Source: a virus. From it: 31,673 nt of DNA. Positions 912-28,978 of the stretch are shown piece after piece. Where the stretch lies: the IMG/VR virus record IMGVR_UViG_3300044940_000097, positions 1-31,673 of that record. One strand, given 5' to 3'. The translations under genes and the position numbers were made by a program. Position 1 is the first letter of the stretch, and every line of letters starts with the position of its first letter. A model generated the notes under the pieces. The model saw nothing but the letters and a program-made list of their open reading frames with translations, searched no databases and had not been told where the DNA came from.

Positions 912-1622
912 TTAACCAGTCACCACACCAGCAAGAGCATTAAGAGTTGGCGGAAGACCTAATGAGTATTCTTCAAAGTATTCATAGTCAATCTCAAGCT
1001 CAGTCTTGGCAATTTCGCCTGAGTTTGCATCAAAGTCACTCTGTGATTTGTATCGTATCGGCACACATGAATGCAGAAGCCATAGACGAGTAGCGATTAC
1101 ATAGTTCTCATTGCCCACATTGCCCAACAGCGTCGCCACATCCGCAAGACCTCCAGCGATGGCGCCGCCCAGCGGTCCTCCCAGTGACTCACCAGCCTTC
1201 TGCGCCAGCGCCGCCGTCGCTTGACCAAAGACCGACGCATAACGGATGAACGACCCATCGGTCCCTGGCATGAGCGAGTGAATCGCCATCAGCGCAAGCG
1301 TGCGCCTATACACGCCGCGCCCATATACTGCTTGCTGTATCCACCTGTAAAACTCTTGGTCGCCAACCCTGACACCCTTGGAGAGCGTGAGCGATGACAC
1401 GCTGGCGCCCTTGATCACATGAATTGGAAAAGGAAACACACCAGACCTGATCTCTTGCACATCGGCGCTGATCTCAGGAGCCGTAGCAGACTCAAACGAT
1501 ATTTGAGGAGCCAACACCTGAAATGGAGATGGTATGATGTCTTGAATTATTGTCGATGGCGTCACATCAAATAGATGAAACCTGTGAACTTGATAAAAAT
1601 CCTGACTTCTACTTCTTGCCAT
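912..1622 (-). CDS. Tail tube-like paralogue with an Ala/Gly-rich insertion
   Basis: This 236-aa protein starts MARSRSQDFYQVHRFHL, close to the start of the tube protein encoded at 1892-2419. It ends with a block (KSQSDFDANSGEIAKTELEI) matching the tube's KPQSDVDASAGDIATAEIEF. The paralogy implies a gp19-type tube fold. Between the two conserved halves is an insertion at about residues 118-172, rich in Ala and Gly and hydrophobic (for example GGPLGGAIAGGLADVATLLG). In T4-like phages, gp19-fold relatives include baseplate-tube junction proteins such as gp54, so a tube initiator or terminator role is plausible but not shown. The start at 1622 follows the paralogue; it overlaps the preceding gene by 14 bases, and upstream GTGGTG is a weak ribosome site. 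Confidence 0.75.
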   Translation of the reverse strand: MARSRSQDFYQVHRFHLFDVTPSTIIQDIIPSPFQVLAPQISFESATAPEISADVQEIRSGVFPFPIHVIKGASVSSLTLSKGVRVGDQEFYRWIQQAVYGRGVYRRTLALMAIHSLMPGTDGSFIRYASVFGQATAALAQKAGESLGGPLGGAIAGGLADVATLLGNVGNENYVIATRLWLLHSCVPIRYKSQSDFDANSGEIAKTELEIDYEYFEEYSLGLPPTLNALAGVVTG

Positions 1623-1803
1623 GAGGCACACCACTAAACAAGAATGCGTCGATCTCTTTGATGAGCTGGCTCTTCTTGTTTATCCTGAATATGTCGTCGC
1701 GCTTGAGAGGCTTTGTGATGAGAGGAATGGTGAACGTAGCGATCCCGCTTGTCGTCGTGCCAGCCTCAATGACCTCTATTTCAACCAACGTGCGCCGCTT
1801 CAT
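1609..1803 (-). CDS. Small conserved-looking tail-region protein (64 aa)
   Basis: This 64-aa protein is not recognised. It begins MKRRTLVEIEVIEAG, is beta-prone in the first half and ends with a basic, helical segment (FRINKKSQLIKEIDAF). I place the start at 1803 because GTGGAG lies about 7 bases upstream; a longer reading to 1851 would run into the 14-bp hairpin at 1826-1860 and has no ATG. It lies between two tube-like genes and overlaps the next gene by 14 bases, so it is probably co-translated with it. A role in tube assembly is possible from position only. Confidence 0.6.
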   Translation of the reverse strand: MKRRTLVEIEVIEAGTTTSGIATFTIPLITKPLKRDDIFRINKKSQLIKEIDAFLFSGVPHGKK

Positions 1804-2432: not shown

Positions 2433-3161
2433 TCAGATGAGTGAGAAGTCTCCAGGTGGAGGTGTCGTCGGCGTATTCGCCTTGGATTGATGCGACCTGC
2501 GACCTGAGCCTGATGTCGTGAAGTCTTCCAAGTACTGGCGTAGCATCATGAGCGCCTGATCTATGTTGATGAAGCGCGGCTGTCGGAACACAGCACCCAT
2601 CTCAGGGAAGTGACACAGATCGTCCAGCAGGCTAACAAGTTCGTCAAACTTATCCTGAGCCTTTGGAAACTTGTGGCGCCACGCACGACCATAGCGACCG
2701 TTTCGACACAAGTTGCGGACCTCTTTTGTGCTTTCAGCTCCACTATATCCAGACTTCGCACCACTGTCTTGCTGCTTATTGTAGTGGTCAGGCAGCACAA
2801 CCTGCCGGCAATGAGCTGTCCAAAGAGTGTCCATCAAGTGATTGAACTCTTCGTCGCTCAAGGCGGTGTGGCCGATCAGTCTGACCGTGACAGGGCCAGA
2901 CAGATACTTTGTAGAGGTGCCACGCTCGGCAGCGTTGACTGCCCTTGGCGCTGGCCCTGAGTCTGACTCGCCATATGCTATCTGCACCTCCCAGCCACCA
3001 GGTTGTATCTTGGCGTCTGGATTGTAGTCAGCGGTGAGCTGATCAAATAGCGAGTATTCCAAAGGGCCAGCAGATGGTGTGCCGAGCTGCTGGCGCCGAT
3101 CCCGCGTTGCCCCCTTGAAGCCAAGCAACGCTTCATCGATCTGTGTCAGCAGTTCGCGCAT
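2433..3161 (-). CDS. Unknown tail-region protein between sheath and tube
   Basis: This 242-aa protein is not recognised. Its ATG overlaps the sheath stop codon (TGATG at 3161), so the two are probably translationally coupled. The sequence is mixed alpha/beta with a helical first 20 residues. A middle segment reads GGWEVQIAYGESDSG then TVRLIGHTALSDEEFNHLMDT, and the C-terminus is disordered and Pro/Ser/Thr-rich (TPTTPPPG). The early part has the look of small phage tail or head-tail proteins, but I cannot name a family. Position suggests a structural or assembly role in the tail. Confidence 0.65.
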   Translation of the reverse strand: MRELLTQIDEALLGFKGATRDRRQQLGTPSAGPLEYSLFDQLTADYNPDAKIQPGGWEVQIAYGESDSGPAPRAVNAAERGTSTKYLSGPVTVRLIGHTALSDEEFNHLMDTLWTAHCRQVVLPDHYNKQQDSGAKSGYSGAESTKEVRNLCRNGRYGRAWRHKFPKAQDKFDELVSLLDDLCHFPEMGAVFRQPRFINIDQALMMLRQYLEDFTTSGSGRRSHQSKANTPTTPPPGDFSLI

Positions 3162-5797
3162 CAGGTGCCTCCATCGCGGAGCTGGCGATGCTGGAGAATG
3201 ATGAACTCGGCAGGCTTGAAGGTCGCCACGCCATAATCCACGATCAGCTCGCCCGCCTCCACAACTGCTGTGGGGTTATTGCGCCCGTCGATCTGCACAA
3301 AGAACGCCTCGTCCTCCGAGTTACCCTTGTACAAGCCCTCGATGTAGCCACGGCGCAGGAATTGGCGAATCTGCTCCGAGAGACGCGCCCACAGGACAGG
3401 TCCGTTATTCTCAAAGACCGCCCACCAGACCGACCGTTGCACGCTGACAGAGGTGTAGTCAATCGTGCGGCGATTGGACAGGTAGCGATACGACCCGCCG
3501 ACCTGCAACGTGCGCCCGCCCCAGACGCAGCGCGGCTGGTTAGGCGGCTGCCAAAGCGCGTTGATGTTGACGCCCGTGAGGCGGCCAACCTCTTCCTTTG
3601 ACAGATTGCGCTCGTAGTCAAGGATACCGTTGAGCAGGCCATAGGTGATGCCCGCTGGCGTCTGCCCGACATTCTTGAGCGCATCAGTACGAGCGATCAC
3701 ACCTGCGACATGACCATGCGGCGGGATCGTGATCGCGCGACCGTTGAGGGGGTTTGTGACCTTGACCCAAGGATAGTACATCGCCCCACGATCCGAGATC
3801 GATGCCAACGTGCGCTGCTTGTAGTTGATCGCCTGAGAGACGCTTGCGCCTTGAGGCGGCGACACAAGCACGATGCTGTTTTGGCGCGCCTCCGCATAGG
3901 CAATAGTCGCTGCCTCAGCGAGCCTATCCCCAGCAAAGTCCGGCACCGCGAAGATCAGCAGATCGTCAATGTCCTCAAACGCATAGATGCCGCGCTTGCT
4001 ACCCTTGAGCGCAATGTCAGTCACGTTGGAGCGCGTCACTGCCGCGCCATCGTTACCGCCAGTGAGGCTGCTGACGACGCTGCTCTCCTTTGTGGAGTGA
4101 AACGCAGCCAAGTTGATCTCATTGAGGTTGTCAGGAGCAACGCTCGGCGTAAAGATCAACCGACCCGTCCTATAGTCCACCGTCGCAGTCGAGCCAACGT
4201 CCACATCGCCAATCAACTGACCAGATCCGTCGTCAGTGATCGTGCGCGGGATGCCGCCCGACGAGTATGTGATCTTAATGCTCGTCGGCACAACAGGGCC
4301 GAAGTAGCCAGGGATCTGCGCAACCGTCTGGCGCACCGTACCGTTACCCACATCCAGCAGGACGAACGAGGATGCCTTGCCAGCCAGCGCCGTTGGCAGA
4401 CCAGCGGATGAAGGCGCGGACATCTCAATCAGCGCCGACCCGGTGTATTGATCGTTCAGAACCGCCGCGATGTGGCGCGTGTCCGCCACATCGTCCAGCG
4501 TGATATTCTCAAACGCCTCGACCACCACAGGCTTGCCCTGCGAGTCCTTCTCGCGCACGAACACGTTGTAGCGAGTGTAGTTACCAGTCTTCGCATCCAA
4601 GTAGTTTGGATCAGGCACGATCTCAAGCGACAGGTCGTCGCCGCTGACACCCTCATTGCGCGCGACATGCTTCTGCACGCGCGCATCAAAGGCCACATAG
4701 ATCGGATTACCAGCCGTCGTCACCGCCACAGATGTGAAGTTCAGGATACCCGCTTTAGCATCAAGCGTGCCTGTACCAGCAGGGCCAGTGATCACACCGT
4801 CCTCATCCGAGGTGGATACCAAGAATGTCTTGTAGGCGTATGCGATGCTAATAGAGGCATCTGCAACTGGCGGATTGGCCGTGATGACCAGCTCAAACTC
4901 GCCAGTGACAATGTTGAGGTTGCCAGTAGCGTCGCCAGTGAAGGCGTTACCCACGTCCAGCGTGGCAGTGCGCGGCGTCGCCGTGGCATCCACCCACGAC
5001 ACCTGAACGGAGGGATTGACGATATGCTTGTTTGCCAAACGCCCAGCATACACACGCTGGCCAGACACGCCAGTCGCCATAACCTCCGCAGCCACGAAGG
5101 TAGCAGGCTCGTAGTCGTAGGTCATCGTGACGTTGCCCGCCGTCACATCCGCCAAGCCCCAAGAGATGGAGATTGCGCCAGTGTAGTAGTTAATCGTACC
5201 AGTGGCAGTACCAAGACCCGTCAGGTTGCCGCTACCATCATCAGTCAACGTCTGCGGCGTGGCGATACCATCCACATAGTTGATGGTGACGCTGCCCGGC
5301 ACAATACTTACCTTATCAGCGGTAAACGCCTGCGTGCCGGATGCCGGCACAGCGGCGCCAAGTATCTCACCTACCACTGCGATGTCGTCTGTGAAGTACA
5401 GGCTAAACGTATCAGCAACGATGTCCTCCACGCCCAAGTCAACACCCGTGAGCGTATTCACACCGGCCACGGTGTTCCCTTGGGAATCGTCCACAGTCTT
5501 ACTGGCGAAGTAGCCCTCAGACTTGGCAGCACCCGCGCCGACGACGCGCACGATGTAGGCGTTACCGCCATCGTTTGCGTAGTATTGGCGCAGCGTGAGA
5601 GGACCAAAGCTCAGATCTGTATCCTCACCGAAGACCTTGAAGGCATCACCAAGCGACGACACAAGCACTGGTGTGTTCACTGGACCCTTCTTGAACGAGC
5701 TGACCAGCGCCAAGTTTGCTGTGGAGACACCAGCCGTAAAGCGCGGCGCCTCATCGATCTCACGGCGATATACGCCAGGGTAAGTATAGCCAGGCAT
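3161..5797 (-). CDS. Contractile tail sheath protein with beta-domain insertions (gp18-like)
   Basis: This 878-aa protein has the sheath N-terminus (MPGYTYPGVYRREIDEAPR, then DAFKVFGEDTDLSFGPLTLRQYYANDGGNAYIVRV at residues 51-85). The conserved sheath C-terminal half spans about 640-875: SPPQGASV, YYPWVKVTNPLNG, PPHGHVAGVIARTD, NALWQPPNQPRCVWGGRTL, and VFENNGPVLWARLSEQIRQFL. It forms the contracting outer tail layer. It is longer than T4 gp18 (659 aa). The extra length lies in beta-rich inserts at about residues 155-235, 255-325, 330-372 and 495-570, which share a DDGSG-x-L-x-G then TG-x-I-x-Y-x-TG pattern. AGGAGG precedes the ATG closely. Confidence 0.93.
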   Translation of the reverse strand: MPGYTYPGVYRREIDEAPRFTAGVSTANLALVSSFKKGPVNTPVLVSSLGDAFKVFGEDTDLSFGPLTLRQYYANDGGNAYIVRVVGAGAAKSEGYFASKTVDDSQGNTVAGVNTLTGVDLGVEDIVADTFSLYFTDDIAVVGEILGAAVPASGTQAFTADKVSIVPGSVTINYVDGIATPQTLTDDGSGNLTGLGTATGTINYYTGAISISWGLADVTAGNVTMTYDYEPATFVAAEVMATGVSGQRVYAGRLANKHIVNPSVQVSWVDATATPRTATLDVGNAFTGDATGNLNIVTGEFELVITANPPVADASISIAYAYKTFLVSTSDEDGVITGPAGTGTLDAKAGILNFTSVAVTTAGNPIYVAFDARVQKHVARNEGVSGDDLSLEIVPDPNYLDAKTGNYTRYNVFVREKDSQGKPVVVEAFENITLDDVADTRHIAAVLNDQYTGSALIEMSAPSSAGLPTALAGKASSFVLLDVGNGTVRQTVAQIPGYFGPVVPTSIKITYSSGGIPRTITDDGSGQLIGDVDVGSTATVDYRTGRLIFTPSVAPDNLNEINLAAFHSTKESSVVSSLTGGNDGAAVTRSNVTDIALKGSKRGIYAFEDIDDLLIFAVPDFAGDRLAEAATIAYAEARQNSIVLVSPPQGASVSQAINYKQRTLASISDRGAMYYPWVKVTNPLNGRAITIPPHGHVAGVIARTDALKNVGQTPAGITYGLLNGILDYERNLSKEEVGRLTGVNINALWQPPNQPRCVWGGRTLQVGGSYRYLSNRRTIDYTSVSVQRSVWWAVFENNGPVLWARLSEQIRQFLRRGYIEGLYKGNSEDEAFFVQIDGRNNPTAVVEAGELIVDYGVATFKPAEFIILQHRQLRDGGT

Positions 5798-5807
5798 CGT
5801 GCCTCCT

Positions 5808-6260
5808 CTATTTCGTCAGGTAGTCCCTAGCAACCTTTGCGACCTTTCCAGCATGTGTTTTGGTTACACCGCATAGCGCCGCGATGTCTTCCACACTAAG
5901 GTCTAATAGTTGCTTAACAGTCTTCACGTCGTTATCTATGAGGCTCGCTTTGTTGCGGTCGCTCAAGTCAAGCCGTTCAATGGAGTCGTCTTCCTTTTGG
6001 ATGAGCGACTGTTCGTGGTTTACCTCAATCTCAGCTACACCTTCCATTTCTTTTGTTTCAGTGGCGATTGGCGCATCGCTCGCAGGCGTGGGCGTGGGCT
6101 TGCTCTTTACGGCCTGCAAGACGCCGCGCTTGATAAGGTCCACCACCTGAGCTGTCATGCGTATGACAACAGGCTCATCCTTTGGCCGCAGGATCAGCAC
6201 CTCTCCGTTCAATAGAGTAACCTGAACGGGCTGCTGCGTTGTTCTATACTTCGTAGTCAT
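5808..6260 (-). CDS. Unknown protein with C-terminal alpha-CTD-like helix-hairpin-helix domain
   Basis: This 150-aa protein has two parts. Residues 1-50 form a small beta-rich region (VTLLNGEVLILRPKDEPVVI). A Pro/Thr and acidic linker follows. Residues 92-150 (IERLDLSDRNKASLIDNDV, then TVKQLLDLSVEDIAALCGV) line up by eye with the RNA polymerase alpha-subunit C-terminal domain (LELTVRSANCLK ... GKKSL), a helix-hairpin-helix fold. Arg102 falls where alpha Arg265 would be. It lies directly upstream of the sheath gene with 10 bases between. It could bind nucleic acid or polymerase, or be a structural connector using the same small fold. Function is open. Confidence 0.7.
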   Translation of the reverse strand: MTTKYRTTQQPVQVTLLNGEVLILRPKDEPVVIRMTAQVVDLIKRGVLQAVKSKPTPTPASDAPIATETKEMEGVAEIEVNHEQSLIQKEDDSIERLDLSDRNKASLIDNDVKTVKQLLDLSVEDIAALCGVTKTHAGKVAKVARDYLTK

Positions 6261-10791: not shown

Positions 10792-11295
10792 CTAACCCTC
10801 CAAATCTATTCGTTCTGGTTTGGATCTTCCAAACACTATGTAGACCGACCTTACATAGAGACTTGCTCGCTCTCTCTTCATGCCCCCCAGCTTTGCCTTA
10901 CTTTCATCCACATAGCCTAAAGTCATGTGAGGCACAAATCCATATGCACCACTTTGTACCAATCCATCAGCCTTCAGGATCTCATACATTTCATTCTGAA
11001 GCTCATCCATCTCAATAGATGTGAACAGCAGCACCTTTACATATTTATCACCCTTCACATCAGGGTAAAATGTTCCATCACCCGTCAACTCAATATAAAA
11101 AGGCTTTCTTTTTCTTATTGATGAAACAAGAGCATTCCTTGCTTGTTCGCTCATCTCACCAAGTTTACTTGAGTAGAACAGCGTCAGATGAAGATCTGAC
11201 GCGTCATATTCGCTATCGCAAAACTTTGATAGTCTATCCACAAACTCAATGTTTGGGTAGATTGCTATCATTCCATTGTGGCTTCCTATCTTCAT
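10792..11295 (-). CDS. 2H phosphoesterase superfamily protein
   Basis: This 167-aa protein carries the two H-x-T motifs that define 2H phosphoesterases: HLTLF at residues 36-40 (His36, Thr38) and PHMTLGYVD at 122-130 (His123, Thr125). They are about 85 residues apart, as in the 2'-5' RNA ligase-like group. Such enzymes open cyclic phosphodiesters or cut 2'-5' bonds. One phage member, T4 Acb1, destroys cyclic nucleotide signals of CBASS defence; another group repairs RNA ends. The start at 11295 has GGAGG 6 bases upstream; an ATG at 11301 sits too close to it. It lies among neck genes, an odd place for an enzyme. The substrate is not known. Confidence 0.82.
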   Translation of the reverse strand: MKIGSHNGMIAIYPNIEFVDRLSKFCDSEYDASDLHLTLFYSSKLGEMSEQARNALVSSIRKRKPFYIELTGDGTFYPDVKGDKYVKVLLFTSIEMDELQNEMYEILKADGLVQSGAYGFVPHMTLGYVDESKAKLGGMKRERASLYVRSVYIVFGRSKPERIDLEG

Positions 11296-11309
11296 CCTCA
11301 TCCTCCACT

Positions 11310-13997: not shown

Positions 13998-15506
13998 TCA
14001 GACGTTGAGAACCTTGATGCGCCCGTAGTATTCGGGGCGGAGCATACGCTTCGCATAGCGCGTGCGCAGACCCTTCTTGTTCGTATGATCCTCTGGATCA
14101 AGGAACGTCTGCGTCATCTGGAGCGGGATGTACGGGGCATACACATAGCCCGCATCCAGATAGTTGCGACCCTTGTAGCCAACGATGATCTCGTCAGTGC
14201 GCATATACGGGTCCACAAACACCTGGAAGCGATTGTAGAGCAGACCCATGCGATAGATGCCCATATCCGAGGTCTGCTGACCGTAGGTGATGGGGCGCTC
14301 AACCTGCGCGCCAAGCATCGAGAAGTCCGCGTGACCTTGGAACTGCACGAGAATCGAGCTGATCTCAGGCGAGACAACAAGCCAATTAGCCAGCGCTCGC
14401 TTGGACTTGCGCAGGATCTTCGACGACACGTCTTGGATCTTTGTCACCAGCTCGCGGTAATAGTCCATCTGGGCCATACCTGCCGGAGCGCCACCGCGAT
14501 CCCAGGTATCCACGGTCTGCGCACGGTTGCGGATGTCGCGCAGGATCTCGCGGTCGATCTCCAGACCGATCTCGTTCGACACGCCGCTCAAAAGCTGCGT
14601 CTCGCCCTCCACGCCATGCAGCGCACGCAGATCGTCCGCAGCCTCAGCCGTCCAGGTGATATTGATCTTGCGCGTCTTGGCGCGGATCTCATCGACGGTG
14701 ATCTGCAAGGCGATCTCAGGCAGGTTGAGGTTGCCTTCCTGATCGTAGAAGTAGTTGACGACGACGCGGTTGCCAGTCGCGGGCGGGTTCGTGAAGCGGA
14801 AGTTGGTGAGCTGACCAGTGATGTAGTCAAACGCAGCCGTGCCTACCACATCACCCGTAAAGCTACCAGCGCCGTTATCCACAGCCGACTGCACGACGTT
14901 ACCCGCGCCATCCACCTCACTGATCGTGACCTTATAGGTCGGATCGGACACTGTGGTGTTGTTCGGGAACACTGGCGAATAGTCGAACGTCACCGCCAGC
15001 GCAGCGCCAGCGCCGCCGAAGCGCACACCATCACCCGTCGCCAGCAGCTCCTCGTCAATCTCCTCCGAGCTGTACGTCTCATTGAACGTCTCAGTCAGGA
15101 TTGATCCCTGCGGAACCGTACCCTTGCGCTTGTTGTGCTTGTAGTCGAGATAAAAAATCGCGCCCACAGGACCGCTGAGAGGCTGAATCTCCACCAGATC
15201 GTGAGCGATCAGATTGGGGAAGACGCGCATCAGGACCGGGAAGATCGTGGACTGATAGTCCGCGATGTTGGCGGTGGCTGTGCCAGCGCTCTCGCTCACC
15301 AGCGTGCGCGGCGCCTTGTCGCGGCCAGTCATCTCGTTCAGCGTGGACTCAAGCACCATCGCCGTTGCGGCGCGGCGCATATCGCCTTCAACCTTCGGAG
15401 CGGGGATGTGTTGCAGGTATTGCGACCACTTGCTCTCCACCATCTCAGCATAGTCTCTGTTGTGGATATTGCGCTGGTCGTTTGCGAAACTTGTGTTCGT
15501 GGACAT
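13998..15506 (-). CDS. Major capsid protein (gp23-like) with inserted beta-domain
   Basis: This 502-aa protein sits right after the protease-scaffold gene. The N-terminal 60 residues are helical and likely removed on maturation: STLNE at 54-58 gives an L-x-E site as in T4 gp21 cleavage. HK97-type capsid features follow, such as RVFPNLIAHDLVEIQPLSGP at 94-113 and GAIFYLDYKHNKRKG. C-terminal blocks include KRALANWLVVSPEISSILVQ and VFVDPYMRTDEIIVGYKGRN, typical of T4-type capsids. A beta-rich insertion at about 165-255 (DNGAGSFTGDVVGTAAFDYI) resembles the sheath insertions. The start at 15506 has GGAG about 7 bases upstream; an ATG at 15539 lacks a ribosome site and overlaps the protease gene. 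Confidence 0.93.
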   Translation of the reverse strand: MSTNTSFANDQRNIHNRDYAEMVESKWSQYLQHIPAPKVEGDMRRAATAMVLESTLNEMTGRDKAPRTLVSESAGTATANIADYQSTIFPVLMRVFPNLIAHDLVEIQPLSGPVGAIFYLDYKHNKRKGTVPQGSILTETFNETYSSEEIDEELLATGDGVRFGGAGAALAVTFDYSPVFPNNTTVSDPTYKVTISEVDGAGNVVQSAVDNGAGSFTGDVVGTAAFDYITGQLTNFRFTNPPATGNRVVVNYFYDQEGNLNLPEIALQITVDEIRAKTRKINITWTAEAADDLRALHGVEGETQLLSGVSNEIGLEIDREILRDIRNRAQTVDTWDRGGAPAGMAQMDYYRELVTKIQDVSSKILRKSKRALANWLVVSPEISSILVQFQGHADFSMLGAQVERPITYGQQTSDMGIYRMGLLYNRFQVFVDPYMRTDEIIVGYKGRNYLDAGYVYAPYIPLQMTQTFLDPEDHTNKKGLRTRYAKRMLRPEYYGRIKVLNV

Positions 15507-15535
15507 ATCTAACTCCAATCCAGGGAGTACGCCCA

Positions 15536-17587
15536 TCACTTGTGGGCGAACATTTGATTGTATCTGTCTAGCGTAAAGCCAGGCAACAGCGGCGAACCGC
15601 CATTGTTTGCTGACTCACGCAGATTACCGTGCAGGTTTTCTTTTCTCTCTTCCACTTTTTCTTGTGTCTTACCAGAAGCCACGTCGCGTATTCTCTGTTG
15701 AGTGGATTCAGAGAGCAGCGTTGAGTTGGAGTCCTTCTTTGTAGGTCCAGCAACAGGCTTTCGGTATGTCTTGTTATAAGACTCAATCAGTGGACCGATC
15801 TCACGCTCACTCTTTGCCATCTTCAGATGCTCCAAGAGAGCATTTGGGTTGGCAGAGCCAATGACAGCCTTGTAGCGCGCAAGGTCAAGATGCAGATCCT
15901 CAACAGTCTCATTCAGACGAGCAAGCTCATTGCGGCTCTCCATCACAACAGCTTTTGCCTTCTGATAGCCAATCGCCTGCTGTTCAGCTTCGGTCAGTTG
16001 AGCCTTCAGCATCTTTATCTGATCACGACTCTCTCTTATCAGATCCCTTGCAGCGTCTTCTCTCTGCTTGCTCTCCTCTAGCTCTTGACGGAGCGCTCGC
16101 AGAAGATTTTTTGCCTCTTGCAGTTCAGCATGTGCGCCATTCAATCGCTTGATCTTTATGCTGGCCGCATTAAGTCTCTCATTGCAATCACTCAGCTTAC
16201 CTTTAAGATCCTCAATAAAGCCCTCATATACAGAGGGCTCATCGTAGAGCCTGCCATTAGAGGCAAACTCATTCATGACCACTTCAACGCGCTTTCTATA
16301 CTCATCAAGCGTGTCGTAGTTTTTATAAGGTCCAACCATAGACAGGAAGTGGTCAGTATGCTCCTTCCGCACTCTATGCACATTGCTTGCGAGAATGTAT
16401 GCGACAGACACCTTGCGCAAGTCTTCCTTCAATGCAGCTTTGCGCTCTTCCAGCTTGAAGATGTCAGCGTTAGCTGCCTCAAGCTGCTCTTTCCAACCCG
16501 CACGCTCCGCCTCCGAAAGATCCGAGGGAGTCATTCCCTCCGCCAACGGGGCGATCTGACGCAGGAGCGACTTGTAAACGAGGCGCATATCGCCCTCAGC
16601 CTCCAACTCCTCCATCACACGCTCACGCTCTTCCTGCGTTGCAGTGTACAGCACGCGCTCAAGGTTCTCTGCAACCTTGGCTTGCTCATTCTCCACAGCA
16701 ACGCGCAGCTTCTCCTCATAAACACGGTTGAGCTTGATCGTAACATTGCGCTCCGCCTCTGCCACGAGACTTGCGTGAATGTCAGGATAAAGCGCAGCCA
16801 GCGCGGCGAGCGAGTGAGGGATCACCCCTTCCGTCTTGACAGGTTCAGGCATGACAGGCTTGAGCGGAACGATGTGTGATGCAGGCGGCGCCACAGTGGC
16901 ATTGGGCTCACTGCTTGAGCTATCACCGCTGGACTTGTCATCACCCTGCGTCTCTTCACTGTCCTTCACATCAGCACCTTCCTCGCCTTCTCCCTCCTCC
17001 TCGCCCTTACCCTTGCCATCTGTATTGACGTTGACCTCCACATCAACCTCAACTTCAACCTCAGACTCGGCAAAGTGCGTACCTTCGCCATGATAACTAA
17101 AGTCTGGCAACGCGCTAGACATCGCGGGGTCAGCCACAACGTCATAGGTCAGCAACTTAAAGTCCTCTTGGACGACGTGATAACCTTGCTGATTTTTCTG
17201 CACAGATCCGAGGCCGCGAGATGACACACCCAGCTTTACGCCAGAGTCAACCAGCGCTTGCAGCTCTCGACCATTGCGCGTCTTCAAGACCTCCAAATGA
17301 CCCATCACGCGCCCATCAGACTCAATGGTCATCTTTGTGATGATGTGAGACACACGACCGAGCATGGTGCGGCCATCGTCAGGATGATCCAGCTCACCAA
17401 AGAGCTGACGGTGCATCATAGCCCGCTCCAAGCGCTTGATCTCGCGCTCCAAGATGCGCCTGGGATAGATGCGGCCATTAGCGGTCGGCACATCTACACG
17501 GCCAAACTCGCCAACAGCGACGATCCGACCGTCTTGAGACTCGCTCAGTGTAAGCGTGAGCGGATGATATTCTCTCATATACTGCAT
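15536..17587 (-). CDS. Prohead protease fused to a long coiled-coil scaffold
   Basis: This 683-aa protein has an N-terminal serine protease domain of the T4 gp21 type. His68 lies in FGELDHPDDG, Ser122 or Ser123 in LGVSSRGLGSV, and an acid in DVVADPAMSS near 149-157. After an acidic linker (about 165-240) the remaining 440 residues are almost entirely charged coiled coil (for example ELEESKQREDAARDLIRESR), as expected of the internal scaffold, gp22 in T4. One gene thus does the work of two T4 genes. The protein should build the prohead core and then digest it. AGGAGTTAATC precedes the ATG, and a terminator lies upstream at 17621-17672, so this gene probably starts its own transcript. Confidence 0.9.
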   Translation of the reverse strand: MQYMREYHPLTLTLSESQDGRIVAVGEFGRVDVPTANGRIYPRRILEREIKRLERAMMHRQLFGELDHPDDGRTMLGRVSHIITKMTIESDGRVMGHLEVLKTRNGRELQALVDSGVKLGVSSRGLGSVQKNQQGYHVVQEDFKLLTYDVVADPAMSSALPDFSYHGEGTHFAESEVEVEVDVEVNVNTDGKGKGEEEGEGEEGADVKDSEETQGDDKSSGDSSSSEPNATVAPPASHIVPLKPVMPEPVKTEGVIPHSLAALAALYPDIHASLVAEAERNVTIKLNRVYEEKLRVAVENEQAKVAENLERVLYTATQEERERVMEELEAEGDMRLVYKSLLRQIAPLAEGMTPSDLSEAERAGWKEQLEAANADIFKLEERKAALKEDLRKVSVAYILASNVHRVRKEHTDHFLSMVGPYKNYDTLDEYRKRVEVVMNEFASNGRLYDEPSVYEGFIEDLKGKLSDCNERLNAASIKIKRLNGAHAELQEAKNLLRALRQELEESKQREDAARDLIRESRDQIKMLKAQLTEAEQQAIGYQKAKAVVMESRNELARLNETVEDLHLDLARYKAVIGSANPNALLEHLKMAKSEREIGPLIESYNKTYRKPVAGPTKKDSNSTLLSESTQQRIRDVASGKTQEKVEERKENLHGNLRESANNGGSPLLPGFTLDRYNQMFAHK

Positions 17588-19553: not shown

Positions 19554-22361
19554 TCAGCCAGACCTTCTCTTTCTTTCCTTCACATCACCAAAGTCAAACC
19601 TTGCTCTTGGCGCCGACTTGAAAGCTGAGTTTTTTTGAATGTTTGTGAGCAGATCCCTTACGCCATCCAGCTTCTTAAATAGCGCACTATGACTCTTGCG
19701 CATCTCAAGAATAACCTGCTCAGGGTTCATATCGCTGCGACCTCTTGTATAATCGCGCTCGGACACTCCCCATGCACCTGATTTGATCTTCTTGGCGATG
19801 CGACGCTCCCGCGCGGCGCGCGCGACCTTTGGATTGCGCACCTCATTGAGTACGGGCCGCCCCTCCGCCTGCTCCAGGCTTTCGTTTTGCGCTTTTGTGG
19901 TCAAGACATCACGGCGGATCTCGCGCTCAATCTCAGCCGTAGAGAGCATGTCTAGCTCCTCTTGGCGCAGGACCATAAGATTGACAGCCTCCTCCTCGCT
20001 GAATCCAAACAGGTTGACCATAAGCCACCGAACACTCACCTCTTCCTTGAGGCGGTCCATGATGTCTGCCTTGGCAGATAAGATCTCAATCCTAGCCAGC
20101 TCCAAGATGGCAGATGGGACAGTCATAAGAATGTTGTAGTAGAAGTCATCAGGGTTTCTATTGGTTGCTAACATATGCACATCAGCTATATGTGAGAAAC
20201 CATGTCTGATGCCTTGCTGCACACGCATGATGCTTGATGCAAACCTGATGTCCTCTTGAGACAACGGCCTCTCCTGAACATCATCATCCTTGCCGAGCAT
20301 CGGAATCTTAATCGCCCTGCCCAGCTTCTTTCTGAAATAGTCAATATCATCCACGGCCTGATAGTCTGGACCCTGGATGCTATCAATCCTGACCGCCTCG
20401 CCACGCTGTCTATTAACAGGCACAAAAAAGTCTTCATCAATCGACAGGGGATCAAACGCAGTGTCAAGCTGCCCCGTTGAAGGATTTATTATCCTGCGAC
20501 GCTTGTACATATTGCGAACTCGCTTCGCCTCTTCCCATGCCTGCTGTGGCGGCAGATTTCCTGTATCCACATAAAAAGCATATCGAGAAGGCGCGCGAGT
20601 GTTATGCACAACAACGCCGTCAGCAACAAAGTTATGAGTCTCCGCATCAACACCTATATCCCAAATCTCGCCCTCAAAAGACTTCTTGACCTTTAGTATT
20701 GGCGAATGAAGGCCGAACCTCTTTCCAGACACGGTGAGTTTTGCAGTGCCATTTGACACCACTATATTTCCACAATCAAACCCAAAGAACATCAGCTTTG
20801 ACTTGAGTATTCTCGCTTGAGCAATCGCCCTTGTCTTGAAGATGCCATCATGCTTGTTAAGTATAACGGAAACCATAGCATCAAGCATTGCATAGCGATG
20901 CTCAAAAGCCATGCTATCAAACCAGTGTGGCAATAGAGCGTTCTTTCGCTCTGAAATTGCGATAATATCATTAACGAAAAGATACTCATGTATAAACAGG
21001 CTCTTTATTGACTTGCTATCATCGTAAATGGCAAGAGATATATCACCACACCCGCTCAAGAATGCTTTAACAAATGACCAAGACTCATCATCAGTATCAA
21101 ACGATACGATACCTTTCTTCATGATTGAAGCAGACATCAAGTAGATGCCAGCAAACCTGGCCAAGTCTGTCGTCATGACAGATGGGTAGTTGTCAGCATC
21201 CAAGCACACGAGCGGCTTCTGCTCGGCGCTCACAACGCGCTGCGCCATCGGCAACAGCTTATAGCTACCTTCCTCCACGAACGGAGTCACGAAGCAATGG
21301 TGGCCAGGCTCAATATCCTTGACCTCCACATAGCTGTACTTCCATTGGCCATCTTCCAGGTGAGCGCAGAGAACAGGGTGTGTGGCGTTCGCATAGAGGC
21401 GGCGCGTATCCGACGACACCTCATAAATCCAATCTGTTCCGTTGCACTTCTTGTAAGTGATATGTGTCTCTTTCAGCCTCGCGTCGTGATCAAACGTATA
21501 GATCGCATCACCAACGTTTACATCACTAATAGGCACGTCGCCGTTCTTGGTCCAGACGCGGGAGTCTTTGTAGAGACACAGCTTATGGATAACAGCCGCA
21601 TCTTCCATCATGACCAAGCGCTTGTACGCCCAGCGCGCGCCATCAAAGATGCCATCACCATAAAGCGACGAGCGGTTCTTTGCGGATAGCTTAAAGTTGG
21701 CGACCTCCCAAGGCTCAAAGCCTATCGTGTTGAACGAAGAGGCCGACATCTGAGGCAGCGGGTGCATGTGATGCCCATTGCCGCGCAACATCATGGCTCG
21801 GAATTGACTCGGCGTCATGGGCGCCAGGCCACTGGGGCTGACCACGAATCCCATCAACTGCCCGTATTCGTCAGGCACCTTGCGCGTCCACGGCGTATGG
21901 AGCGGCTGCGTATCAATGACGCCATGTTCGTTTACAAACAGGCGCTCGTAGGCATCCCCATACTTGCAGGCGTAGCGCACCAGCTCCCAGAGGAACGACT
22001 GCACCTTGAGCTGTCTGTGAAAAAGGAAGTTCAGGTCGGCGGCGAGGTTGTCGTTGTCACTCTCAACCCAGAGCTGACTCTTGCGCAAAAAGTCGGGCTG
22101 CGTTGCCTCATCAGCATAGTTATCAAGAGACGATGTTAGCTCTGGATAGTTGTCCATCTCTTCATAGTCTCTATATTTTTGAATCAAATCCTGATGTATC
22201 GCAACATGCATTGTATAGAAGTCATAGAAAGACATGCCTTCTACGGCTACTGGCGGCAGACCTTGCTGCGCGTAGCGCGCACGCTCAATGCGCGCGATTT
22301 CGTCGTTGTCGCGCTCCCACGCTTGACGCACGGTATCCCAAATGTCTCTCAAACCAGCCAT
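19554..22361 (-). CDS. Portal protein (gp20-like) interrupted by an intein
   Basis: This 935-aa precursor has two portal extein halves of 261 and 348 residues, giving a spliced portal of 609 aa. T4-type portal features include DNYADEATQPD near 80-90, SLYGDGIFDGARWAYKRLVMMEDAAVIHKL at about 232-261 and, right after the intein, TRAPSRYAFYVDTGNLPP. Later blocks include IDYFRKKLGRAIKIPMLGKDD and SQEDIRFASSIMRVQQGI. Residues 262-587 are the intein. The C-terminal 100 residues are charged and basic. The portal dodecamer is the DNA entry channel and docks the terminase encoded just upstream. AGAGGT precedes the ATG at 22361. Confidence 0.92.
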   Translation of the reverse strand: MAGLRDIWDTVRQAWERDNDEIARIERARYAQQGLPPVAVEGMSFYDFYTMHVAIHQDLIQKYRDYEEMDNYPELTSSLDNYADEATQPDFLRKSQLWVESDNDNLAADLNFLFHRQLKVQSFLWELVRYACKYGDAYERLFVNEHGVIDTQPLHTPWTRKVPDEYGQLMGFVVSPSGLAPMTPSQFRAMMLRGNGHHMHPLPQMSASSFNTIGFEPWEVANFKLSAKNRSSLYGDGIFDGARWAYKRLVMMEDAAVIHKLCLYKDSRVWTKNGDVPISDVNVGDAIYTFDHDARLKETHITYKKCNGTDWIYEVSSDTRRLYANATHPVLCAHLEDGQWKYSYVEVKDIEPGHHCFVTPFVEEGSYKLLPMAQRVVSAEQKPLVCLDADNYPSVMTTDLARFAGIYLMSASIMKKGIVSFDTDDESWSFVKAFLSGCGDISLAIYDDSKSIKSLFIHEYLFVNDIIAISERKNALLPHWFDSMAFEHRYAMLDAMVSVILNKHDGIFKTRAIAQARILKSKLMFFGFDCGNIVVSNGTAKLTVSGKRFGLHSPILKVKKSFEGEIWDIGVDAETHNFVADGVVVHNTRAPSRYAFYVDTGNLPPQQAWEEAKRVRNMYKRRRIINPSTGQLDTAFDPLSIDEDFFVPVNRQRGEAVRIDSIQGPDYQAVDDIDYFRKKLGRAIKIPMLGKDDDVQERPLSQEDIRFASSIMRVQQGIRHGFSHIADVHMLATNRNPDDFYYNILMTVPSAILELARIEILSAKADIMDRLKEEVSVRWLMVNLFGFSEEEAVNLMVLRQEELDMLSTAEIEREIRRDVLTTKAQNESLEQAEGRPVLNEVRNPKVARAARERRIAKKIKSGAWGVSERDYTRGRSDMNPEQVILEMRKSHSALFKKLDGVRDLLTNIQKNSAFKSAPRARFDFGDVKERKRRSG
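20601..21578 (-). other. Intein (326 aa) in the portal protein, endonuclease decayed
   Basis: The intein starts at Cys262 (CLYKDSRVWTKNGDVPI) and ends VVVHN at Asn587, with Thr588 as the +1 residue. Splicing blocks are present: block A at the N-terminus, block B NATHPVL at 325-331 (Thr-x-x-His), block F ETHNFVADG at 574-582, and block G VVVHN. The central 170 residues look like a LAGLIDADG endonuclease that has lost its acids: FAGIYLMSAS stands where a G-D-G is expected, and MLDAMVSV where L-D-A-D-G-S-V is expected. It sits in the most conserved segment of the portal, as inteins often do. Removing it restores a continuous portal motif. Confidence 0.9.
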
Positions 22362-22383: not shown

Positions 22384-24333
22384 TCAGCCTATAAGGTCAT
22401 GCCATGTATCTAGCGGATGTTCAATTCTTCCTTCCCGCTCAAACGGATCACTAGGAAGCCCCACTCCGCGCGAGCTATTTCTGGATAGTGTATACACCAC
22501 ACCCGCCAAAGAATCGCTCAAGTCCTTTGACTCGCCTGGTATGTGATCAACCTTGCCAGTCAGGTTATCTTTCTTGAGAAGCGACAGCTCACGCTCAAGA
22601 ATCTCATTCTTCACGACAGACACACGGCGCTCATACATTGCCTCTTTAAGTGTGTCGTAACCATCAGGTTTCGTATCAAGACTGAATCGCTCAGTGGTGA
22701 ATCCATTATCCTCCAACACCTGCAATGTGTCTGCTGACTGATAGGTGTCAGATGTGACGAGAGTGATTGTGTAGCCATGCTTCCGAAGCTCATAGATGAG
22801 GTGACGTATGTTGGAGAAACGGATCTCATCGTTGGGCGGGGCGACGATTTGCAGAAGCAGATCAATCTTGATGAACGGTCGCTGCTCTCTGTACTCAACA
22901 CCCGTCTCAGGGTCGCGCACCGTCACTTCAACCCACTTGGCCACATGCCCCATACAAAACCCCGTCGCATCTGTGGTGAGTGACGGGTCAATGTGGATAT
23001 GCCGAGGAGCGTCAGGGTTCAGAATAGGCTTGTGCTTGACCTCTATCAAACCACCAAGCGTCTTGGTGTTGTAGCTGCGCACCATGAGATTCCAGTTGAT
23101 CCTGAGTGTCGATCCACTCTCCCAAGAGAGTGATGGCAGCGGGTGCGGCCCATCTTGGCGATCATCGCTCATCCACTTGATAGCATCTGGCTTGTTTAGA
23201 TAAGGCATGACTCGCGGCACTGCCTTACCTGCGATGTCACGAATGGCAGTCTCAATGTCATTCTCAAACTCACCTCTATACTCAATGGGAATGACCAACA
23301 CCTCTGCCATCTCGTCATCTGTATTTGGCGGCGCCTCCCCTTCTGCCAAGATCCTTGATGGGAGCGTTCGACCTCCAAAAAAGACTCTAAATTTTTCTCC
23401 GCTATACTTGTCTTGTGGCTTCACATCCCATTCAGCATAATCCATAACGTACATGCCAGGATCATCCTTGCCATCTTGAATGCGCTTGGCCGTAAAGTCA
23501 AGATCGGTATTCTTGGATGAGATCACGAAGAGTACGCCAGGCACAGAACCGTGACGCATGAAACGGCTCTTGATACGCTTCGTGATGGATTGGTGAACCT
23601 TCTCAATGCGCGTCACTGGCTTTGAGTTAAGCGTCTTATCCTGCTTGAACTGCTTATTGTTAGCACCAAAGTTAACCTCGTCCATAATCGCGCCAAAGAC
23701 GTTCAAACCGATCAACCCCTCAGATGTAGAAGCAGCACAGACAATGCGTATTGAGTCTGTAATCTTGGCTTCGTACTTGCCAAAATCTGGCCTGGGCGAC
23801 AGCTCTTGAAAATAGGGGCTTGATTGCACGCGGTTCATCAAGTCTTGATAGATAGAGCGAGATGCCTGCACCTGTGTCGTAGACATAAGCGCAAAGTAGA
23901 TCGGCGTGCCTGCTGCCAACCCATATGTCTCTTGCGGGTCAGCCAAGCATGTCAGCTTATACAGAGAATAAAGCATCCCAGTTATGGAGAAGAATGATTT
24001 TCCATAACCAATTGAACCAGTCAAGATGACTTCAAAGTAATTCCCATTTATAACCTCAATAATATCTTCCTTGAGCTTTGGATAGAGATTTCTTGATGAT
24101 GGGCCAGAATAGTATTCATCCTCAATAAACTCTTCAATGGATACTGGCGGTCGTCTGTAATGACTTTTTCGCAGCCTTGCTGCCTCCTTATTGATCTGCT
24201 CATCTCCAGACAGCAGCCTTATGATGTACTTCTGCTCGGCAGCAGACAGTGATGCCCAGTCACGCTGCATAGCCTTGATCTCCTCTTCAATCGTCCTTAC
24301 GACCTTGGCACGTCCATTCTCCTCGTAGATCAT
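22384..24333 (-). CDS. Terminase large subunit
   Basis: This 649-aa protein is the ATP-driven packaging motor and nuclease. The ATPase half has Walker A GSIGYGKS at 106-113 and Walker B FGAIMDEV with Asp218 and Glu219. The RNase H-like nuclease half has the three expected acids: Asp449 in IHIDPSLTTDATG, Asp529 in LVTSDTYQSAD, and Asp607 in SKDLSDSLAG. The length is close to T4 gp17 (610 aa). Its ATG overlaps the stop of the preceding putative small terminase (ATGA), and the portal gene follows 22 bases later, the usual order of packaging genes. Confidence 0.94.
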   Translation of the reverse strand: MIYEENGRAKVVRTIEEEIKAMQRDWASLSAAEQKYIIRLLSGDEQINKEAARLRKSHYRRPPVSIEEFIEDEYYSGPSSRNLYPKLKEDIIEVINGNYFEVILTGSIGYGKSFFSITGMLYSLYKLTCLADPQETYGLAAGTPIYFALMSTTQVQASRSIYQDLMNRVQSSPYFQELSPRPDFGKYEAKITDSIRIVCAASTSEGLIGLNVFGAIMDEVNFGANNKQFKQDKTLNSKPVTRIEKVHQSITKRIKSRFMRHGSVPGVLFVISSKNTDLDFTAKRIQDGKDDPGMYVMDYAEWDVKPQDKYSGEKFRVFFGGRTLPSRILAEGEAPPNTDDEMAEVLVIPIEYRGEFENDIETAIRDIAGKAVPRVMPYLNKPDAIKWMSDDRQDGPHPLPSLSWESGSTLRINWNLMVRSYNTKTLGGLIEVKHKPILNPDAPRHIHIDPSLTTDATGFCMGHVAKWVEVTVRDPETGVEYREQRPFIKIDLLLQIVAPPNDEIRFSNIRHLIYELRKHGYTITLVTSDTYQSADTLQVLEDNGFTTERFSLDTKPDGYDTLKEAMYERRVSVVKNEILERELSLLKKDNLTGKVDHIPGESKDLSDSLAGVVYTLSRNSSRGVGLPSDPFEREGRIEHPLDTWHDLIG

Positions 24334-27072: not shown

Positions 27073-28422
27073 TTACAAATGTGACGTAATTTTTTCTCTC
27101 TCAATAACTTCTTGAGGCAGTTTTTGCGCAAGCAATTCAAGTATCCTTGTGTTCTGAGCCTTGTACTCCCAATGTGCGTTGGACGTGGAGGCGCGCAGCT
27201 CGGCCTTGTAGACCAAGTTCGGCAAGTCAGCCTGATACTCCAAGCGTAACAAAGCGCAGAAGGGTAGCGCATGAAGCGCCTGCCACTTTGCAGCCTTTGT
27301 GGTAGCTTCATGCCATAGCTCAAAGAACAGCTCGCTCGTCAATGCAGCCAAGTCAGCAGGCACCTCAAATGGCGTCCACGGCGCAAACACCACTGCATCG
27401 CCATTGACCACAGGCGACATGTCGAAAGGCATCAGCGGGCGATGCCTGTGTTCATCGCGCGCTGTGCCGACTGACACATACTGCACCACATCCAATTGCG
27501 GTGTGCGCGCATAAAGCGGGTCAAGATAGCTGCGCGGCCCCTTGCGCGGCTCCGCATAGGCAAGAGCATGAGCATATGCGCCTGCACCTTGAACACTGGA
27601 GAAGTGCGCAAGCTGGAGCCGCACACCCTCTTGAGCGCTCACCATGCCAACCGCATGACCGTCCCAATCGGCAGCGCCGCCAAGGTCGTGCAAGCGCACG
27701 TTCCAATGACCCATCGCATCATCGCGGGCGCCGCGACGCAAAGACTTGGATGTAGCAGGCGCATAGGCTGCAACACCCTCAAGATATTGGTCTGCCCAAT
27801 CCTTCACCCAGCCGCTCAGATGCTCCATGCGCTCCAAGTGGCGCACCACATCGCGCGCAGGTGCGCCAAAGTAACCGACGCCTGTACGCATCGTCCCTGG
27901 CAGCGCAAACCGCCTGTCATCAAACTTGTACGCCCTTGACTTGCCTGATGCACCATCCACCTTCTCTGATGGTAGGCCATCATAGAACGCCATCCACGCA
28001 TCATGGAGGCGCTGCAAGCGCGGATCTGCGCCTTCACAAATGTTCAGGCGCTCAGGCACATGGTGCTGGTCAATGACGCGCGAGCTGTTTTCCTGACAAA
28101 TCACGCGCGGGAAATCAAGCAGAAGCCATGCGAGCGGCCATCCCATCCCCTCCGCATATACCCAGACAGGCGCCATCTCGCCAATGCTGGCATGGCTGTA
28201 TCCTGCCAAATTAAGCGCCAAGAAGTCCTCAACAGCCTTGGGCGGCTGCTGCCAATCCCATTGCTCAGGCTCGCATCCTGCGGCGGCCACCAACTCCTCA
28301 AACCTCTTCGGCAAATGCGCGGCGCGCGATGACTTCGCCGCCATCACCGCACCAACATCCGGCCCCATATCTGGAGACAAGATCCAGACATTCTTTGACA
28401 CATTCAACATGCCGCTCTTCAT
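27073..28422 (-). CDS. Tandem ThyX-like (flavin-dependent thymidylate synthase fold) protein
   Basis: This 449-aa protein appears to hold two divergent ThyX-like units. Unit 1 (about 70-215) has YSHASIGEMAPVWVYAEGM, the place of ThyX's E-H-x-x-F segment, then FPRVICQENSSRV where RHR-x-x-S...R is expected, and FALPGTMRT...ARDVVRHLERM like the ThyX L-P...N-R-x-L-x-H-F-L block. Unit 2 (about 290-440) has VSVGTARDEHRHRPL with a true R-H-R, then HALPFCALLRLEYQADLPNLVYKAELR and AHWEY, like the ThyX C-terminal A-Q-W-E. ThyX makes dTMP from dUMP with FAD. The incomplete signatures mean the reaction may differ. The start at 28422 has GAGGTG upstream. Confidence 0.7.
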   Translation of the reverse strand: MKSGMLNVSKNVWILSPDMGPDVGAVMAAKSSRAAHLPKRFEELVAAAGCEPEQWDWQQPPKAVEDFLALNLAGYSHASIGEMAPVWVYAEGMGWPLAWLLLDFPRVICQENSSRVIDQHHVPERLNICEGADPRLQRLHDAWMAFYDGLPSEKVDGASGKSRAYKFDDRRFALPGTMRTGVGYFGAPARDVVRHLERMEHLSGWVKDWADQYLEGVAAYAPATSKSLRRGARDDAMGHWNVRLHDLGGAADWDGHAVGMVSAQEGVRLQLAHFSSVQGAGAYAHALAYAEPRKGPRSYLDPLYARTPQLDVVQYVSVGTARDEHRHRPLMPFDMSPVVNGDAVVFAPWTPFEVPADLAALTSELFFELWHEATTKAAKWQALHALPFCALLRLEYQADLPNLVYKAELRASTSNAHWEYKAQNTRILELLAQKLPQEVIEREKITSHL

Positions 28423-28423
28423 A

Positions 28424-28978
28424 TCACACCTCTTCGATGATTCTTTCTTTGGGCAGGAAGAACACAGCGCCTTCCTCGTCACCCGTCAATTGAAAGCCGA
28501 GAAGGCTGCCATACAAACTTGATTCCTCGACAACCTTACACCTGTATACATCACCAACAAAGTCTTTCACTGAAACTTCTCGGTTGATATATTCCTTCTG
28601 AACCGTGGCAAGTATATCAGCAGCCCCGATCACTCTCAGCTCATCATCGTAGCTGCAGCTTACATTGATCGGATTAAACCTTCCGCCGAATTGATAGCCA
28701 TACTTGTGATCAAACATGACCTCTAATCCTGGTTCAAGGTCAACATCCTCGCCAGACGCTATAACAACGCCAAAACGAATCCATAGCTTTGACATACCAA
28801 GACCTTTCTGCTTGATCGTATGAATAACAGTCCTCCTGAAAAAATCTGGCATCACTTGGATATGAACCTTACCAAGAGGACATAACCAAGAGGACTTGCC
28901 AACATTTTGCGCACACCCGTTCTTAAAAATCTTGATGCCGAGTAATTCAGCATCAGTAAAAGAATAACCGACAGGCAT
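28424..28978 (-). CDS. Unknown protein upstream of the ThyX-like gene
   Basis: This 184-aa protein is not recognised. I place the start at 28978, where GGAG lies about 8 bases upstream; an ATG at 29041 has no ribosome site. The protein is beta-rich (LCPLGKVHIQVMPDFFRRTV, then VVIASGEDVDLEPGLEVMFD, and a C-terminal LGFQLTGDEEGAVFFLPKER). It resembles small single-domain beta-barrel proteins such as co-chaperonin-like or OB-like phage proteins only in general strand pattern. It ends 1 base before the ThyX-like gene start, so the two are coupled. Confidence 0.65.
   Translation of the reverse strand: MPVGYSFTDAELLGIKIFKNGCAQNVGKSSWLCPLGKVHIQVMPDFFRRTVIHTIKQKGLGMSKLWIRFGVVIASGEDVDLEPGLEVMFDHKYGYQFGGRFNPINVSCSYDDELRVIGAADILATVQKEYINREVSVKDFVGDVYRCKVVEESSLYGSLLGFQLTGDEEGAVFFLPKERIIEEV

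Follow-up and report, generated by a model that had tools for sequence, protein, structure and literature searches.

The window analyzed here, the whole 31,673-base stretch of a viral record, contained a portal gene on the minus strand whose neighbors were consistent with a module for a T4-like head and tail (Table 1). The portal open reading frame (ORF), 22361..19554(-), encoded 935 amino acids (aa), and these comprised a T4-type portal protein with a 326-aa class-1 intein inside. Both flanks of the insert matched T4-type portals, and the extein matched the Pfam domain Portal_T4 with an E value of 7.5e-48 and the portal family PHROG 213 with an E value of 5e-39. The Portal_T4 domain and the T4-like head gene neighborhood both identified the protein as a gp20-type portal.

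Several other genes in the window had unusual features. The S77 prohead protease was 683 aa overall, with a long additional C-terminal region. A 2H phosphoesterase (PF13563, 3.8e-12) was found at 10792-11301 (-), within the structural module; such enzymes in some phages act against host cyclic-nucleotide defence. The product of 5808-6260 (-) weakly resembled the C-terminal domain of RNA polymerase alpha (PF03118, 1.8e-4, slightly below the cut-off). A 469-aa protein encoded at 27073-28482 (-) had a ThyX-like C-terminal part (22.4 bits, slightly below the cut-off) and was about twice the usual length of ThyX; no intein was found in it by profile, and the related-intein profile described below detected no further inteins in the window.

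Table 1. Positions of the portal intein, its parts, and neighboring genes in the window
Feature	Position	Strand	Basis
Gp19-like tube	912-1634		
Tail sheath	3161-5797		
Gp23 capsid	13998-15539		Match 7.6e-68
S77 protease	15536-17587	(-)	
Portal C-extein, residues 588-935	19557..20600	(-)	Portal_T4 match 584-794
Thr+1, first C-extein residue	20598..20600	(-)	Sequence
Intein, residues 262-587, 326 aa	20601..21578	(-)	One open frame; TIGR01443, Pfam, related-intein profile; between portal-profile columns 276 and 277
Hint-C splicing half, block F (WDIGVDAETHNF) and block G (VVVHN)	20601..20717	(-)	TIGR01443; profile match
Putative LAGLIDADG endonuclease relic, intein residues 101-287	20718..21278	(-)	Position and order in family alignment; endonuclease/Hint identity ratio; predicted fold
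Decayed motif 2, ALLPHWFDSMAFEHRYAMLDAMVSVILN; SVIL in place of DADG	20856..20939	(-)	Family alignment; shuffling
Decayed motif 1, DLARFAGIYLMSASI; MSA in place of GDG	21123..21167	(-)	Family alignment; shuffling
Hint-N splicing half, intein residues 1-100	21279..21578	(-)	106-bit profile match; pLDDT mostly >90
Block B, NATH (Asn-x-x-His67 of intein)	21378..21389	(-)	Alignment with L179, L187, L154, L200
Cys1 of intein	21576-21578	(-)	
Portal N-extein, residues 1-261 (T4 gp20-type)	21579..22361	(-)	Alignment to uninterrupted T4-type portals; portal tree
Terminase	22384-24333		

An earlier note, made from the letters of the window, had placed an intein at residues 262 to 587 of the portal, and these coordinates proved exact. 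The NCBIfam model of the intein C-terminal region, TIGR01443, matched the insert at 8e-6 (25.9 bits versus a cut-off of 15.6), which covers blocks F and G. The window ORF scored 150 bits (E = 1e-45) against a profile of 44 related inteins from which the window had been left out. The Pfam models Intein_splicing (6.8e-5) and Hint_2 (1e-3) matched the intein under their curated cut-offs, as might be expected if the insert were an ordinary portal domain, or some other inserted domain, and not an intein. We regard that reading as exceedingly improbable, given the two stronger profile matches, the Hint fold predicted with pLDDT values above 90, and the empty sites in other portals. The insert was not found as an ordinary domain of homologous portals, as the sequence continued across the site without a break in the roughly 60 portals sampled. 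Thus, the insert had the hallmark of a class-1 intein, namely an in-frame Hint fold that is present in the host protein and absent from its homologues. A search of PDB sequences with the intein yielded no convincing match.

Cys1, blocks A, B, F, and G, the His-Asn end, and Thr+1 were all present in the portal ORF. The C-terminal end of the intein read WDIGVDAETHNFVADGVVVHN and was followed by Thr+1, and the terminal residues in portal numbering were C262, N587, and then T588, so the Cys262 and VVVHN-Thr junctions in the earlier note were correct. The same note had described block B as Thr-x-x-His; the sequence is NATH, in which the His is present and an Asn stands in place of the usual Thr. 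NATH or NKTH was also found in L179, L187, L154, and L200 (locus ids of viral contigs), all of which carry an intact endonuclease, and the Asn is a trait of this whole subgroup. Splicing of the window intein is predicted from its sequence, and the block B Asn could be taken to mean that splicing has been lost, with the portal working unspliced or the gene broken. This is very unlikely: relatives whose endonuclease is intact share the block B Asn, none of Cys1, His, Asn, or Thr+1 is missing, and the portal has an open frame within a T4-like head module. Splicing was most likely retained and would proceed via the Cys1 acyl shift, transfer to Thr+1, and cyclization of Asn326.

Removal of the intein restored a portal, as the note had proposed: the resulting 609-aa form aligned seamlessly with about 60 T4-type portals, taken from deposited phages and viral contigs, that have no insert at the site. 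In these portals, the empty site had the form ED......R(I/L)-xRAPE(R/K)R, with the hyphen marking the junction, and the site in RB69 read DAVVIYRI-TRAPDRR. The residue after the junction was variable in empty portals (M, V, T, S, Q, or A), and Thr occurred there naturally in RB69, L035, L054, and L081. In the inteins found at this site, the next residue was always Thr or Ser. The window insert lay between portal-profile columns 276 and 277, a position referred to here as site C, exactly as in about 30 other contigs. In RB69 gp20, site C follows residue 276. In T4 gp20, the stem spans residues 255 to 278 and the clip, which is the docking site of the packaging ATPase, spans residues 279 to 358 (PMC4493910). 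The insert would therefore lie at about the stem/clip boundary, although RB69 residue numbers carry over to T4 only approximately. An unspliced portal would have 326 extra residues beside the packaging-motor docking surface, which argues that splicing is likely.

Intact site-C inteins were 416 to 442 aa in length and contained the motifs LxGDG and LxGxxDADG, versus 326 aa in the window intein. In the family alignment, DLARFAGIYLMSASI of the window was found under DFARWFGFMLGDGWV, and ALLPHWFDSMAFEHRYAMLDAMVSVI was found under KRIPQWVF...IKRAFIRGLLDAD. For motif 2, the conserved P-x-W served as the anchor in aligning the window to intact relatives; the resulting register placed LDAMVSVI under LxGxxDAD and put the catalytic Asp position at Ile239 of the intein. 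Since the window segments align under the intact motifs, both catalytic Asp residues have been replaced, by Ser and Ile. In this register GDG is MSA and DAD is SVI, and the motifs of an active LAGLIDADG endonuclease are thus missing. These results agreed with the proposal that the catalytic acids had been lost, and with MSA for GDG in motif 1, in which LMSA aligned under LGDG. The pairing of MLDAMVSV with LDADGSV was out of register, a chance look-alike slightly upstream of the real motif 2 position.

The middle part of the intein also differed from the Hint parts in its rate of change. Identity between the window and intact site-C inteins was 29 to 50% in the Hint parts and 13 to 19% in the middle part. 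When identity in the middle part was divided by that in the Hint parts, the ratio had a mean of 0.42 and a maximum of 0.59 for the window versus 18 intact site-C inteins; for 147 pairs of intact inteins, the mean was 0.80, the 5th percentile 0.62, and the lowest value 0.48. Judging from these identities, the endonuclease part of the window intein diverges faster than its Hint part. When the relic alone was used, it was not recognized by the related-intein family profile, and its match to the endonuclease profile was marginal, as 42 of 2,000 shuffled sequences scored equally well. The best placements of motifs 1 and 2 within the segment were the expected positions, with equally good placements in 38 and 11 of 2,000 shuffles, respectively. 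Because the family profile missed the relic alone, its identification draws on position, motif order, and the alignment-driven model. The endonucleases of L216, L219, L221, L180, and L100 were also decayed, yet still recognizable. Among members that kept their length, the window endonuclease appears to be the most eroded of the set, with its own lineage represented by one sequence only.

An AlphaFold model from the single sequence had a pLDDT of 36.6 and was replaced by an AlphaFold2 model from a 25-row alignment, which had a mean pLDDT of 79.2. In the latter, the Hint halves were mostly above 90 and parts of the middle were below 50. Helices were predicted at residues 137 to 149 and 225 to 242, where LAGLIDADG helices belong. 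The top ranks in Foldseek and VIA-align comparisons were whole endonuclease-bearing inteins (PhoVMA 7qst, TliVMA, and PI-PfuI). The best match, to PhoVMA 7qst, had a Z score of 23.2 over 287 residues at 17% identity, and I-DmoI was a lower-ranked match to part of the model. Because the model was built on relatives with intact endonucleases, it is compatible with an endonuclease fold and does not prove one.

When the window intein or portal was used as a direct query against viral contigs, no close relatives were found, because the window is very divergent. Relatives were instead gathered via intein C-terminal ends, full portal inteins, and the junction motif HN-[TS]RAP. About 100 portal ORFs with inserts were collected from viral contigs, and the inserts fell at about 10 positions on the portal profile: columns ~111-117, 148-156, 251 (site A), 265 (site B), 276/277 (site C), 279, 316, 329, 348-356, and 379-395. 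Single portal ORFs of 1,852 to 2,600 aa showed three to four gaps on the profile (L180, L191, L130, L169, and L159), and the L191 portal contained four inteins when read by eye. The portals of several intact site-C relatives (L179, L187, L154, L191, L200, and others) had two to four inteins each. Metagenomic T4-type portals are thus an unexpected hotspot for inteins, with about 10 sites and several inserts per gene. The insert counts are not frequencies, since loci were chosen by intein motifs and several contigs were duplicated under different locus ids; none of 80 loci fetched by portal similarity alone carried an insert. A junction scan of cellular genomes yielded no match. In 50,697 deposited phage records, intein queries recognized portal inteins only in the huge phage LR756508, where three inteins interrupt one T4-type portal (L002 7749-11909) in an unannotated record. 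Three queries of the same 50,697 records for full-length portal LAGLIDADG inteins recognized none; one unannotated match, MT835482, was set aside. The huge-phage record LR756511 had an intein at another portal site.

A few inserts in this collection departed from the common pattern. The site-C intein of L182 (and L184) ended at ORF residue 802 with His-Gln, not His-Asn, before Thr+1. The second and third portal inserts of L159 had seeming starts near HKDSPIPLLDGR and RKDSFIPLLDGR, not at Cys, and HNH-like middles; they are possibly inteins of another class. L102 (797-3640) and L103 (538-3381) had an intact-LAGLIDADG intein in a portal-like protein that was not T4-type (HK97-like by eye).

In a tree of splicing domains, the site-C inteins formed one group of 26 (support 94/84) and the site-B inteins formed another (82/67). 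The window fell within a seven-member group with L187, L179, L200, L180, L154, and L191 (99/91), and the same seven portals formed one group in the portal tree (100/99). Because they are grouped in both trees, intein and portal appear to have traveled together in these seven. Outside the group, filled and empty portals were intermixed on the portal tree (five changes forced), and the L220 intein grouped with inteins from another portal lineage, a mismatch that indicates transfer. The window branch lengths were 1.08 for the splicing domain and 1.33 for the portal, compared with about 0.4 and 0.65 for neighbors. Relaxed splicing was considered as a cause of the long splicing-domain branch and was rejected, as the portal branch is equally long.

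Taken together, it is very probable that the insert is a site-C family class-1 intein in a T4-type portal that has lost its endonuclease, most likely splices, and is passively carried. A mobile class-1 intein would have entered the portal gene at the stem/clip boundary, and its endonuclease, presumably no longer able to cleave, would have been lost through substitution of both catalytic Asp residues and deletion of about 100 residues. The intein could then no longer initiate homing by itself and would be carried passively with the phage. In the homing cycle, the endonuclease is under selection only while empty sites remain, and splicing always is (PMC1654191). Among the roughly 30 viral contigs with a site-C intein, most endonucleases were intact and others were mutated or deleted, a series that the homing-cycle model predicts without any host benefit.

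The earlier note had held that such an intein would be fixed in place unless it brought a benefit. This was incomplete, because an intein can be lost precisely only by recombining with an empty allele, so that a dead one can persist passively; it also fits poorly with same-site relatives in all three endonuclease states, repeated decay, and the L220 transfer. A benefit from the window intein is possible. For example, the intein may have been domesticated, with its endonuclease part lost or reshaped since the timing of splicing regulates portal assembly. The retained splicing residues are in keeping with this, as are the seven-member group, which retains the site-C intein although its portals are about 36 to 48% identical where compared, and the 187-aa middle segment, which remains in the window whereas L219, L221, and L180 deleted most of theirs. 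However, decay was on scattered branches with intact neighbors (nine changes for nine decayed rows on the splicing-domain tree), no conserved new motif was present, most members kept the endonuclease, and the residual length matches that of L216 and L100, which are plainly decaying. We therefore consider domestication very unlikely, and we find it very unlikely that the diverged 187-residue middle domain was kept and reshaped for timed or conditional portal splicing as a head-assembly switch. The ordinary homing cycle of invasion, fixation, and decay explains the pattern, and neither a benefit nor a role in portal timing is needed.

The window provides a clear example of an intein after endonuclease loss in an essential phage gene. 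Across many phages, the endonuclease at this one site of one gene is found intact, altered by point mutation, or deleted in part or for the most part; together with the empty sites and one apparent transfer, this range of states could allow a quantitative study of the homing cycle in viruses. Portal inteins also matter for annotation and for surveys that use g20 as a marker, as the interrupted genes look broken or far too long.

Portal inteins as such were already known, and of more interest is the hotspot in portals, which came to light as a by-product of this work. Other phage genes, terminase among them, commonly carry inteins (PMC7886860, PMC3322345), and portal inteins (PORT) are known in cluster C1 mycobacteriophages (PMC5050341), where they likewise lie in the portal gene of a different phage group. 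A literature search that covered mostly open-access papers found no description of inteins in T4-type portals. The inteins of LR756508 are likewise in a T4-type portal, but they occupy sites A, B, and a third, which are neighboring sites and not site C, and two of these inteins lack an endonuclease and are mini-inteins. The site-C inteins of L179, L187, L154, L191, L200, and others share with the window the identical insertion point, a Hint identity of up to 50%, and a NATH or NKTH block B, but their GDG and DADG motifs are intact. The PhoVMA intein of Pyrococcus horikoshii (PDB 7qst) has the same overall fold as the window intein and a LAGLIDADG domain without the catalytic Asp in both motifs, which its authors read as homing-cycle decay (PMC8966425). 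In contrast to the window intein, PhoVMA resides in an archaeal VMA ATPase gene and shows milder decay, and both a crystal structure and assays exist for it.
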